From Pseudomonadota bacterium (lineage in GTDB: Bacteria > Pseudomonadota > Gammaproteobacteria > Acidiferrobacterales > Acidiferrobacteraceae): a DNA stretch of 64,000 nucleotides. Positions 56,735 through 60,980 of the stretch are shown piece by piece. Where the stretch lies: NCBI GenBank assembly GCA_021795715.1, contig JAJYPD010000001.1:62001-126000 (forward strand). Direction: 5' to 3'. The translations under genes were made by a program, and so were the position numbers. Every line of letters begins with the position of its first letter. Positions within the stretch are counted from its first letter, which is position 1. The notes below the pieces were generated by a model. It made no database searches and was not told where the DNA came from. It saw only the letters and a list, made by a program, of their open reading frames with translations.

Positions 56735-58285
56735 CTATTCCTTGAGCTCGATGAGCGGCCGCCCCGTCATTTCGGAGGGGATGGGCAATCCCGCCACCCG
56801 CAGGAGTGTCGGCGCCACATCCTCGAGGGAGCCCGTGGGCGCCATCAGCGCCTGGCGGCCGATGTAAAGCAAAGGCACCGGGTTGGTTGTGTGCGCCGTA
56901 TGGGCCTGGCCGCTTTCCTCGTCCTGCATCTGCTCGGCATTGCCATGATCGGCCGTGATCAGCAGTTCACCGCCGTGACGGCGCACCGTATCGGCGAGCA
57001 TCGCCAGGCAGCGGTCGAGGATTTCGATGGCCTGCACGGTGGCGGCAAAGTCGCCGGTGTGGCCGACCATATCGGGATTGGCGAAATTGCAGATGATCAC
57101 GTCGTGGCGGCCGTCACGGACGGCCTGCATGACCGCCTCTGTGACCTTCAGCGCGCTCATCTCCGGTTTGCTGTTGTAGGTCGCAACGTCGGTCGGGGAC
57201 GGGATCAGGATCCGGTCCTCGCCCTCGAACGGGGTCTCTTCACCGCCGTTGAAGAAAAACGTGACGTGGGCGTATTTCTCGGTCTCGGCCACACGCAGCT
57301 GCCGCTGGCCAAGGCCTGCCAGGTGCGCGCCGAGGACATTGCGCAGGCGCGCCGATGGGAAAGCGACCGGCACATTGAAGTCGGCCTGATATTCGGTGAG
57401 GCTGACGAAGCGGGCGAGCCGCGGATGAACCCCGCGCACGAACCCGTCGAAGCGCGGTTCGATGAATGGCCGGGTGATCTGCCGCGCCCGGTCGGAACGG
57501 AAGTTCATGAAGACGACCACGTCGCCGTCGCCGATCGTGCGCGCCCCGCAACCGGGCGGGAGAATGAGCGTGGGACGCACGAATTCATCGGTCTCGCCCC
57601 GCGCATAAGCGGCCTCGAGTGCGGCGGCCGCCGTCGGCGCGTGGAACTCCGCCTGGCCCGCCGTCATCAGGTCGTAGGCGGCCTGGATGCGCGGCCAGCG
57701 ATGGTCGCGGTCCATGGCATAGTAGCGCCCGACGACGGACGCGAAACGGCCGTGGCCCAGGGCCTCGAACTTCGCCTCCATCGACACGATCGACGCGCCC
57801 GCGCTCTGCGGCAAGGTATCGCGCCCGTCCAGGAAGGCGTGCAGGCACACGTCGGTGAGCCCGCGGCTGACCGCGAGCTCGACCAGGGCATGGATGTGGT
57901 CTTCGTGGCTGTGTACCCCGCCTTGGGACAACAACCCCATGATATGCAAAGCCTTATGGCTGTCGCGGGCGAGGTCGACCGCATCCGTCAGGGTCTTGTT
58001 GGTAAAAAAGGCCCCGGAGGCGATGGCGCGATTGATGCGGGTATATTCCTGATAGACGACCCGGCCCGCGCCGAGATTCAGATGACCGACTTCGGAATTG
58101 CCCATCTGCCGCGAGGGCAGGCCGACGGCCGCCTCGGACGCCTGAATCAGGCCGTGGGGCGACGCCTGCCAGGCCTGATTCCACCAAGGGGTACGGGCGG
58201 CGGCAATCGCATTGTGCTCCGCCTGCTCGCGATATCCCCAGCCATCCAGAATGACGAGTACCAAGGGTTTTGGGGTCGACGACAT
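56735..58285 (-). CDS. gpmI: 2,3-bisphosphoglycerate-independent phosphoglycerate mutase
   Basis: Interconverts 3- and 2-phosphoglycerate using two Mn2+ ions. The 516 residues show LVILDGWGYRE (metal Asp), the phosphoserine motif RQMGNSEVGHLNLGAGR, GLLSQGGVHSHEDHI, AFLDGRDT, GRYYAMDRDHRW, NFRSDRARQI, CNFANPDMVGHTGD and TADHGNAEQM. First gene of a run with envC and ctpA; three bases separate it from envC. The AT-rich divergent spacer upstream is shared with the ArsR-type regulator gene. Confidence 0.97.
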   Translation of the reverse strand: MSSTPKPLVLVILDGWGYREQAEHNAIAAARTPWWNQAWQASPHGLIQASEAAVGLPSRQMGNSEVGHLNLGAGRVVYQEYTRINRAIASGAFFTNKTLTDAVDLARDSHKALHIMGLLSQGGVHSHEDHIHALVELAVSRGLTDVCLHAFLDGRDTLPQSAGASIVSMEAKFEALGHGRFASVVGRYYAMDRDHRWPRIQAAYDLMTAGQAEFHAPTAAAALEAAYARGETDEFVRPTLILPPGCGARTIGDGDVVVFMNFRSDRARQITRPFIEPRFDGFVRGVHPRLARFVSLTEYQADFNVPVAFPSARLRNVLGAHLAGLGQRQLRVAETEKYAHVTFFFNGGEETPFEGEDRILIPSPTDVATYNSKPEMSALKVTEAVMQAVRDGRHDVIICNFANPDMVGHTGDFAATVQAIEILDRCLAMLADTVRRHGGELLITADHGNAEQMQDEESGQAHTAHTTNPVPLLYIGRQALMAPTGSLEDVAPTLLRVAGLPIPSEMTGRPLIELKE

Positions 58286-58295
58286 CGCTTGACTC

Positions 58296-58350
58296 TATAT
58301 CCGTCCGGTTCTTTAGTTTTTTAAAATTGACTTATTGTATAATCTTTTCT
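58296..58350. promoter_or_regulatory. AT-rich divergent promoter region of gpmI and the ArsR-type gene
   Basis: A 50-base AT-rich island in GC-rich DNA holds a perfect -10 TATAAT at 58338-58343 on the plus strand, 75 bases before the regulator's ATG; no good -35 lies at 17 bases. The island is a plausible operator for the adjacent repressor, since BigR-type sites are AT-rich, but no clean palindrome is seen. Confidence 0.45.
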
Positions 58351-58417
58351 GTGATCGGGGCAGCTGGCGCATCCGCGCAGCCCGCCGCCGTCCGCCATCA
58401 CCCTGACAGGAGTCACC

Positions 58418-58759
58418 ATGGTGCCTAACGAGACGATCCGTCCGCTTGACGAGATCCTCATAACTAACGAAGACGATATTGATCTGGCATCGCGTTCGCT
58501 CAAGGCCATTGCGCATCCGTTGAGACTGAAGATCCTCTGCATTCTCGGCGCGGCGACCGAAGTGAGTGTACAGGATATTGTCGCGCAAGTGGGGACTTCG
58601 CAGAGCAACATATCCCAGCACCTCTCGATCCTGCGCGACAAGGGAATCCTGGCGTCGCGCAAGCACGCGAACAAGGTCTTCTACCGCATCGCCGACCCGC
58701 GGATTTTGCAGTTGATCGGGGCCATGCGCATGGCGTTTTGCACCCTTCCTGGAAGCTGA
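58418..58759 (+). CDS. ArsR-family repressor with BigR/SqrR-type cysteine pair
   Basis: 113-residue winged-helix regulator: AIAHPLRLKILCIL, the recognition helix SQSNISQHLSILRDKGIL and wing SRKHANKVFYRI. Instead of the ArsR or SmtB metal motifs it has exactly two cysteines, Cys41 in helix 2/3 (KILC) and Cys108 in the C-terminal helix (MAFC). That spacing matches the persulfide-sensing regulators BigR and SqrR (about 41/42 and 107/108), which form a tetrasulfide bridge and release DNA on sulfide stress. A rhodanese gene starts nine bases after the stop. Sensor function is inferred. Confidence 0.85.
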   Translation: MVPNETIRPLDEILITNEDDIDLASRSLKAIAHPLRLKILCILGAATEVSVQDIVAQVGTSQSNISQHLSILRDKGILASRKHANKVFYRIADPRILQLIGAMRMAFCTLPGS

Positions 58760-58768
58760 GGTCATCCC

Positions 58769-59182
58769 GTGGAAAGTTTTGTCATCGCGCATTGGTACCT
58801 CTTTTTGGCCCTCGTCGTGGTGGTCGCGGCACTGATCGCGCAACCCCTCATGAGCGCGGCCTCTGGCGTGGCGGCGGTGACGCCGACCGAAGCCGTCCAG
58901 ATCCTCAATCACCAAAATGGCGTGATCATCGATGTGCGCGAGCCGAGCGAGTTCAAAAGCGGCCACATCATGCGCGCCATCAACATCCCGCTAAGCCAGG
59001 TCGGCACGCGCAGCCAGGAGCTGAAGAAGTACAAGGATCGGCCGGTGATCCTCTGCTGCGTCAGCGGGGCGCGCTCGGCGCGCGCGGCGGGCATTTTACG
59101 CCAGCAAGGATTCAGCGATCCCCGCAATCTGGGCGGGGGGCTGAACGCCTGGCGGTCGCAAAACCTCCCTCTGGAGTCCTGA
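58769..59182 (+). CDS. Membrane-anchored rhodanese-like sulfurtransferase
   Basis: 137 residues: one N-terminal membrane helix (WYLFLALVVVVAALIAQPLM) and a single rhodanese domain with VIIDVREPSEFKSGHI and the active-site loop CCVSGARSA, where the second Cys is the expected persulfide carrier. GTG start, preceded by ctgaggtc. Similar to YibN in E. coli, which also lies upstream of grxC-secB-gpsA. Following a sulfide-type repressor, it could move sulfane sulfur to acceptors such as glutathione or TusA-like carriers. Confidence 0.88.
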   Translation: MESFVIAHWYLFLALVVVVAALIAQPLMSAASGVAAVTPTEAVQILNHQNGVIIDVREPSEFKSGHIMRAINIPLSQVGTRSQELKKYKDRPVILCCVSGARSARAAGILRQQGFSDPRNLGGGLNAWRSQNLPLES

Positions 59183-59188
59183 CACACC

Positions 59189-59446
59189 ATGGCCAAAGTC
59201 CTGATGTACACTACACGCGTTTGTCCCTACTGCCAGATGGCCCAAAAGCTCCTCGAAACGAAGGGCGTGACCATCGACAAGATCGCTGTCGACGAGATGC
59301 CGGAGCGGCGCCGGGAAATGACGCAACGCGCCGGCGGCGCGACCACCGTCCCGCAGATCTTCATCGACGAATACCACGTCGGCGGCTACCGGGAGCTGGC
59401 GCAGCTTGAAGTCAAGGGCGAGCTCGACCGCCTGCTGGCGCAGTAA
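59189..59446 (+). CDS. grxC: Glutaredoxin 3
   Basis: 85-residue dithiol glutaredoxin with active site CPYC (VCPYCQMA), the cis-Pro motif TTVPQIFID and the glutathione-binding GGYRELAQLE. Reduces mixed disulfides with glutathione in the cytoplasm. It lies six bases after the rhodanese gene; the order rhodanese-grxC-secB-gpsA is conserved in gammaproteobacteria. Confidence 0.95.
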   Translation: MAKVLMYTTRVCPYCQMAQKLLETKGVTIDKIAVDEMPERRREMTQRAGGATTVPQIFIDEYHVGGYRELAQLEVKGELDRLLAQ

Positions 59447-59485: not shown

Positions 59486-59953
59486 GTGGCCGAATCCGGT
59501 ACGGAGCAGGAAGTCGTTTTCAGTCTCGAGAAGATCTATGTGAAAGACATCTCCTACGAGGCACCCCACGTCCCCCAGGTGTTCCTCGAAAAGGCCGCCA
59601 TGGAGGTCGATCTGCAGCTGGGCATCGAACACAAGCCCATCGAGGCGGCGGAAGGCCTCTATGAGGTCGTCCTGGCCGTAACCGTGACCGCGCGCGTCGA
59701 AAAGCGCACCGCCTTTCTCACCGAAGCCAAACAGGCCGGCATCTTCCGCGTGGTCGGCGTGCCGGACGAAGAGATGCCGAAGGTGCTCGAGATCGCCTGC
59801 CCCAACATCCTTTTGCCGTTCGCCCGCGAAGTCATCAACGACCTCGTTGCGAAGGGCGGCTTCCCGCAGCTTCTCATCAATCCCGTGAACTTCGAGGCAC
59901 TTTATCAGCAAAAGATGAGCGGCGAGCAGCCCCATGGGCAGCCGGCCCACTGA
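59486..59953 (+). CDS. secB: Protein-export chaperone SecB
   Basis: Tetrameric chaperone that keeps precursors unfolded and delivers them to SecA. The 155 residues contain FSLEKIYVKDISYEAPHVPQVF, AVTVTARVEKRTAFLTEAKQAGIF, and CPNILLPFAREVINDLVAKGGFPQLLINPVNFEALY. The start is GTG at 59486 after aaggagcacagg. It overlaps gpsA by 20 bases. Confidence 0.96.
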   Translation: MAESGTEQEVVFSLEKIYVKDISYEAPHVPQVFLEKAAMEVDLQLGIEHKPIEAAEGLYEVVLAVTVTARVEKRTAFLTEAKQAGIFRVVGVPDEEMPKVLEIACPNILLPFAREVINDLVAKGGFPQLLINPVNFEALYQQKMSGEQPHGQPAH

Positions 59954-60980
59954 CCCGCGCCGCGACATCGCCGTACTGGGCGCCGGCGCATGGGGCACGA
60001 CGCTTGCGATCGTGCTCGCCCGGCAGGGCCACCGGGTCCGGCTGTGGGGCGCCGATGAAGCGCGGCTTGCGCGCCTGGCTCATGAGCGATGCAATGCGGC
60101 CTACCTGCCCGGGGTGGCCTTCCCCGACTCGCTCACGACAGAGCCCGGGCTCGCGGCACTAAGCGGTTGCCAGAACATCCTCGTGGCGGTGCCAAGCGGC
60201 GGCTTCCGGGCGGTCGTGCGGGCCGTCGCGCCCGCCTTGCGCCCGGATACGGTCCTTGCATGGGCGACGAAGGGCCTCGAGACCGGCACGGGCCGGCGGA
60301 TGAGCGAAATCGTCGAGGAGATCCGGCCGGGACACCCCGGCGCGCTCATCACCGGGCCGAGTTTCGCGCGCGAGGTGGCGGCCGGGTTGCCGACGGCGCT
60401 CACGGTGGTGTCGACGCAGACCGCGGTGGCAGACGAGGTCGCGCAGTGGCTGCGCCACGCGCGGCTGCGTGTCTACACCGGCCGCGACATGCTGGGCGCC
60501 GAACTGTGCGGCGCCATCAAGAACGTGCTGGCCATTGCCGTTGGCATCAGTGACGGGCTCGGATTTGGCGCCAACGCGCGCGCCGCCCTCATCACCCGCG
60601 GACTGGCCGAACTCATCCGCTTCACCAGCGCACTCGGCGGACAGCGCGAAACCGTCATGGGACTTGCGGGCATCGGCGATCTCGTTTTGACCTGCACGGA
60701 TGATCTGTCGCGCAACCGGCGCGTCGGTCTTGCGCTTGGCCGCGGACGGCAGCTCGGCGACATCGTCGGCGAACTCGGACAGGCCGTCGAAGGCGTGGCG
60801 AGCGCCCGTGAGGTGTGCCTGCTCGCACAGGCGCAGGGTGTGGAGATGCCGATCGTCGAACAAGTGCATGCGGTGCTTTTCGAAGGCCAGACACCGGCGA
60901 AAGCGGTGGATGCGCTGCTCAACCGCCAGCCGCGGCCGGAGGACCCTTTGGCGGGCGATCCCGGCAACAAGCGGCTTTAA
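59934..60980 (+). CDS. gpsA: Glycerol-3-phosphate dehydrogenase [NAD(P)+]
   Basis: Reduces dihydroxyacetone phosphate to sn-glycerol-3-phosphate for phospholipid synthesis. The 348 residues show the Rossmann motif IAVLGAGAWGTTLAIVLARQGH, VAVPSGGFR, ATKGLETGTG, ITGPSFAREVAAGLPTALT, the catalytic lysine region ELCGAIKNVLAIAVGISDGLGFGANARAALI and GLAGIGDLVLTC. The ATG at 59934 gives nine extra N-terminal residues compared with the family minimum and a 20-base overlap with secB. Confidence 0.95.
   Translation: MGSRPTDPRRDIAVLGAGAWGTTLAIVLARQGHRVRLWGADEARLARLAHERCNAAYLPGVAFPDSLTTEPGLAALSGCQNILVAVPSGGFRAVVRAVAPALRPDTVLAWATKGLETGTGRRMSEIVEEIRPGHPGALITGPSFAREVAAGLPTALTVVSTQTAVADEVAQWLRHARLRVYTGRDMLGAELCGAIKNVLAIAVGISDGLGFGANARAALITRGLAELIRFTSALGGQRETVMGLAGIGDLVLTCTDDLSRNRRVGLALGRGRQLGDIVGELGQAVEGVASAREVCLLAQAQGVEMPIVEQVHAVLFEGQTPAKAVDALLNRQPRPEDPLAGDPGNKRL

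Follow-up and report, generated by a model that had tools for sequence, protein, structure and literature searches.

The gene that heads a rhodanese-grxC-secB-gpsA cluster in the 64,000-nucleotide stretch of DNA analysed here (the window) encodes an ArsR-fold protein that is probably a dedicated, autoregulated repressor of arsR-rhodanese-grxC-secB-gpsA, responsive to sulfane sulfur (persulfide) and released from DNA through a pair of cysteines. We would file this regulator as a member of an uncharacterised subfamily of dithiol ArsR regulators. The regulator-rhodanese-secB arrangement appears never to have been studied before, as our search of the literature found no paper on an ArsR protein together with rhodanese, glutaredoxin and secB. 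Coordinates of the features are given in Table 1.

Table 1. Features of the regulator locus in the window
Feature	Position	Strand	Evidence
gpmI, divergent, sharing the intergenic region with the regulator; starts at 58285	56735..58285	-	Pfam iPGM_N, 263 bits
Conserved promoter and candidate operator core TTATTGTATAATCTTTT, with a TATAAT -10 at 58338-58343	58332..58348	+	EM motif; single match in the genome; dyad in relatives
GGCAGC-like element at a conserved position, some 16-17 nt past the -10	58359..58364	+	GCAGC at a fixed offset in 20/109 upstream regions vs 1.1 in shuffles
Putative ArsR-family repressor with Cys41/Cys108, 113 aa, ATG start	58418..58759	+	Pfam HTH_5; NCBIfam NF033788; PDB relatives BigR, YgaV, SqrR and HlyU; invariant cysteines
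Membrane-anchored rhodanese (YibN homologue), GTG start, active-site loop CCVSGARS intact	58769..59182	+	Pfam Rhodanese, 71.5 bits; 33% identity to E. coli YibN; same gene order
grxC, dithiol glutaredoxin 3 (CPYC)	59189..59446	+	TIGR02181, 110.9 bits (cut-off 90)
secB, export chaperone, GTG start	59486..59953	+	Pfam SecB, 167.7 bits; TIGR00809, 170.3 bits
gpsA, glycerol-3-phosphate dehydrogenase, overlapping the end of secB	59934..60980	+	Pfam NAD_Gly3P_dh_N/C

The regulator and its relatives

The regulator belongs to the ArsR/SmtB superfamily, as it passes both curated cut-offs (42.8 bits against 22 for Pfam HTH_5, PF01022, and 87.1 against 55 for the generic "metalloregulator ArsR/SmtB" model of NCBIfam, NF033788) and has the expected fold of alpha1-4, beta hairpin and alpha5. 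Its sole cysteines, Cys41 (RLKILC) and Cys108 (AFC), are placed by an AlphaFold model (mean pLDDT 88, built from 44 aligned rows) in alpha2 (34-44) and just after alpha5 (94-107), respectively, and they align with the cysteines of BigR, SqrR, HlyU and YgaV; the original prediction of an ArsR-type protein with only two cysteines at the BigR/SqrR positions was therefore correct. A cysteine pair in alpha2 and alpha5, which the regulator shares, is one mark of the RSS-sensing ArsR type (SSN cluster 4, PMC10509353). Direct identity is 33-38% to the persulfide sensors and 23-29% to metal sensors; an edge in that network corresponds to an alignment score of 22, or about 40% identity. When the PDB was searched by sequence, BigR came first (1.2e-15), followed by YgaV, SqrR, Rv0081 and HlyU, and the best fold matches of the model were HlyU (top, 2.2e-7), SqrR (1.7-1.8 A rmsd) and BigR.

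In a tree computed without the two cysteine columns, the regulator family forms one clade (95/87), while BigR, SqrR, HlyU, YgaV and their relatives form a separate one (95/89), and the metal sensors fall in neither. When the two dithiol clades were joined, the AU test returned a p of 0.318, with which their sisterhood is neither rejected nor supported. The earlier view of a BigR-like sensor thus survives in that BigR, YgaV, SqrR and HlyU are its nearest relatives of solved structure, and in that a placement among metal sensors was not obtained; the regulator nevertheless branches beside the clade that holds the tested persulfide sensors, and not within it. The idea that it is a BigR orthologue was dropped on the tree and on its score with the NCBIfam BigR equivalog, NF040642 (67.6 bits against a cut-off of 155).

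That the regulator might be an ArsR/SmtB-type sensor of metals or metalloids is suggested by its score above the NF033788 cut-off, although this model also matches BigR-type proteins. We consider such a function highly improbable: a residue check found neither the CxC of alpha3 nor the His/Asp set of alpha5, in agreement with the absence of classical metal motifs noted at the outset, neither a transporter nor an arsenate reductase gene adjoins the regulator, and the metal sensors lie elsewhere in the tree. This candidate was dropped on residues and tree.

The nearest outgroup of the regulator family (L224, 97/94 together with it) has the dithiol as well, and it heads an operon for a rhodanese of the YgaP type, a protein with the metallo-beta-lactamase fold that is similar to the dioxygenase domain of Blh (persulfide-dioxygenase-like), and a second rhodanese, along with an SQR-like protein and an exporter of the TauE kind. 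Paralogues were also seen beside sulfur globule protein genes, namely L155 (5100-5396) and L161 (4832-5113, reverse strand), both with Pfam SGP matches at the locus, and L162; in L161 and L162 a Tyr replaces Cys41 and the protein has a CTNC tail. On ArsR proteins with sulfur globule proteins, our literature search found only a genome report.

Both cysteines are kept in all 111 close orthologous loci and in 41 of 41 family-level orthologues, the most divergent of which are about 53% identical. The recognition helix, VGTSQSNISQHL, hardly varies among orthologues. Taken alone, however, the invariance of both cysteines is a weak argument for a thiol switch, because most other columns of the family are also conserved. 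It could be argued, then, that the cysteines are structural and that the regulator responds to another ligand or provides constitutive tuning, in the manner of Rv0081 or NolR-like proteins. Rv0081 is about equally similar in sequence (35.7% identity), and its aligned part has no cysteine at all. In other classes of the phylum, the relatives (L218-L236, e.g. L222:1243-1539) carry Val or Ala, and once Asp, at position 41, and most of these loci keep the rhodanese linkage. The Cys41/Cys108 pair is hence not universal in the wider clade, which is our main reason for caution. As the same relatives share Cys27, Cys94 and Cys108, they may use another, possibly relocated, thiol pair, or else the clade may not always act through thiols. 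For the regulator itself we judge the lack of a thiol switch improbable, since its cysteine positions match the thiols of the tested sensors while remaining invariant in the 41 family-level representatives, and genes of sulfur metabolism are found again and again near members of the entire clade.

An old arrangement with one conserved promoter

The spacing of the genes, with gaps of 9 bp between regulator and rhodanese, 6 bp between rhodanese and grxC and 39 bp between grxC and secB, fits a single operon, and a consensus scan found no terminator-like site on the + strand inside the gene run. The original prediction that a membrane rhodanese and glutaredoxin 3 directly follow the ArsR gene holds; the rhodanese is a YibN homologue, alignable to YibN over 133 aa including the hydrophobic N-terminus.

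That a regulator leads this operon is no oddity. It is an ancient and common gammaproteobacterial arrangement and not a local rearrangement, as shown by its recurrence across the sampled genomes and by conserved synteny. Matches to the regulator are present in 54 of 60 near-relative genomes, mostly as close orthologues, and in 90 of 185 genomes drawn evenly across Gammaproteobacteria, so that about half of the sampled families carry it; the relatives collected from a scan of GTDB genomes are the best 80 of at least 539. The rhodanese gene follows directly in 74/75 testable loci, secB lies downstream in 65/66 and gpsA in 57/58, ctpA is found upstream in 61/62, and a divergent gpmI in 42/75. Together with the cysteines kept in all 111 orthologous loci, the rhodanese linkage goes well beyond what chance would give. 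The rhodanese-grxC-secB-gpsA order is thus as common as had been stated except for grxC, a facultative member present in only 20/62 loci. Two unusual loci were also seen. In genome G018, a second copy of the regulator (L165:4572-4911) has its own copy of the operator and is followed by CbiM-like and phosphoribulokinase-family genes, with no rhodanese; in a contig labelled as Gallionella (L076:4242-4544), the regulator stands with ctpA-envC-gpmI and without rhodanese, which could reflect a betaproteobacterial transfer or a mis-binned contig.

EM analysis of 110 orthologue upstream regions returned the block TATTATTGTATAATGTTTT..T.ATA, with a log-likelihood of 1508 against 125-131 for shuffled sequences. 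The regulon was looked for by pattern search only: with up to 2 mismatches allowed, TTATTGTATAATCTTTT matches nowhere else in the genome, and across 20 further genomes every hit to the complete operator pattern lies at an ArsR gene of the regulator family. Such confinement to a single local promoter block argues for a dedicated local repressor, whose binding there is predicted; a second match to the regulator protein was, moreover, not found in the window genome at E values up to 1. A consensus scan for sigma-70 promoters detected none in which both hexamers are present, and the leader, including the GGCAGC-like element, gave no Rfam match.

In 36 of 109 aligned upstream regions (86 if one mismatch is allowed), ATTA is followed by TAAT after exactly 16 bases, and in none is the spacing 14, 15, 17 or 18 bases. 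The symmetry of this ATTA-N16-TAAT dyad peaks at its own centre, over the -10, in gammaproteobacterial loci; ATTA-N5-TAAT is frequent too, yet its TAAT is the -10 itself. L011-like loci have TATTAGT-N12-ACTAATA, and those outside Gammaproteobacteria have ATTAGT-N4-ACTAAT over the -10, equivalent to ATTA-N8-TAAT and thus spaced like ATTC-N8-GAAT, the SqrR site (SqrR and YgaV sites are from PMC9774250). In the window, the left part of the operator is intact, the right half-site is degenerate or not recognisable, and a search of 58286-58417 that tolerated up to 2 mismatches gave no SqrR-type ATTC-N8-GAAT.

The proposed sulfane-sulfur switch

Of the 161 ArsR-linked rhodaneses that could be read, 160 retain the catalytic cysteine. 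Among YibN-type rhodaneses of operons that lack the ArsR gene (L238, L242-L297), 13 of 55 have no active-site cysteine, that of E. coli included. The canonical C..R loop, with its arginine kept, is found in 35/39 rhodaneses with ArsR vs 5/55 without (Fisher 5e-16). Because the two traits cluster on the tree, this link is only suggestive, and common ancestry could account for it: the trees imply about 9 changes, with 2 or 5 supported independent pairs, too few for significance (sign test, p about 0.5).

We infer a sulfane-sulfur switch because the cysteines of the regulator stand where those of tested sensors do, because the gene is linked to a rhodanese, because its nearest outgroup lies in a sulfur operon, and because soxB (824 bits) and dsrA (565 bits) are present in the window genome, which makes it probable that the host's own metabolism exposes it to sulfane sulfur. 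The known RSS sensors of the ArsR superfamily, in fact, all have this cysteine pair and co-localise with rhodaneses, and release upon sulfane-sulfur bridging has been published for HlyU and other proteins with such a pair (PMC10509353, PMC12423496). Against this reading speak the position of the regulator outside the tested-sensor clade, the equal similarity of Rv0081, the Val/Ala at position 41 of the non-gammaproteobacterial relatives, and the degenerate dyad in the window.

According to the mechanism that we propose, the reduced dimer would sit over the -10 of the single promoter and repress the operon. A rise in per- or polysulfide would then lead to the bridging of Cys41 and Cys108 of one protomer by a polysulfide, and the bridged dimer would leave the DNA, allowing synthesis of the membrane rhodanese and of glutaredoxin, for sulfur relay and reduction. 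Derepression would also raise whatever share of secB-gpsA transcription starts at this promoter.

The same two cysteines might instead form a plain disulfide upon exposure to peroxide or glutathione disulfide, with GrxC resetting the switch. A dithiol regulator and a dithiol glutaredoxin do share one operon here, and peroxide sensors with the ArsR fold are known, RexT among them (PMC8960804). The cysteines of RexT, however, are in alpha3 and not in alpha2/alpha5, RexT falls in another SSN cluster, and HlyU, which has the equivalent pair, ignores H2O2 and GSSG (PMC10509353). Furthermore, grxC is missing from two thirds of the loci and the rhodanese from almost none. A general thiol-redox switch is, in our opinion, unlikely.

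A wider generalisation of the sulfane-sulfur reading is possible, albeit doubtful. In about half of the gammaproteobacterial families such a switch might directly set the level of the membrane rhodanese and, through the common promoter, that of SecB and GpsA. Protein export and the supply of phospholipid precursors would thereby be coupled to intracellular reactive sulfur, and in other Pseudomonadota the same regulator might work with the repositioned Cys27/Cys94/Cys108 set. The persulfide sensors of ArsR type that have been tested to date are scattered, and they govern mostly sulfide oxidation, sulfur oxidation or toxin genes. The regulator described here is orthologous and strongly conserved: many gammaproteobacterial families have it at a single set position in the chromosome, and its promoter site is conserved and single as well. 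If it does sense sulfane sulfur, a function would be given to this protein and to YibN-type rhodaneses, and a link between reactive sulfur and envelope assembly would be directly testable in culturable species (Thiohalocapsa, Thioalkalivibrio).

Relation to known systems

BigR of Xylella and Acinetobacter resembles the regulator in its winged-helix ArsR fold, its cysteines in alpha2 and at the end of alpha5, and an operon with sulfur-transfer genes that is autoregulated, as is predicted for the regulator; it differs in sequence (36% identity) and clade, and the operon of the regulator contains rhodanese-grxC-secB-gpsA and no blh or dioxygenase gene. SqrR of Rhodobacter capsulatus, also 36% identical, has its cysteine pair in the same alignment columns and a similar half-site, ATT(A/C), but no sqr gene adjoins the regulator, and the gammaproteobacterial dyad is ATTA-N16-TAAT instead of ATTC-N8-GAAT. 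HlyU of Vibrio cholerae, persulfide-specific in vitro (PMC10509353), shares an identical dithiol and is the top fold match, although it is 38% identical, has another regulon and is a transcriptional activator. The YgaVP system of E. coli comes near in layout, with an ArsR gene followed by a membrane rhodanese, and YgaV binds over its own promoter (PMC9774250); YgaV, however, is 33% identical and belongs to the other clade, and its partner is YgaP and not YibN.

The operon itself has its counterpart in E. coli yibN-grxC-secB-gpsA, which has no ArsR gene but shows the same gene order and a divergent gpmM, and whose proteins are homologous to those of the window (33-52% identity). E. coli YibN lacks a cysteine at the canonical active-site position (VDGSGMQC, against CCVSGARS in the window), and it has been linked to YidC, the membrane and cell shape (PMC12282094).
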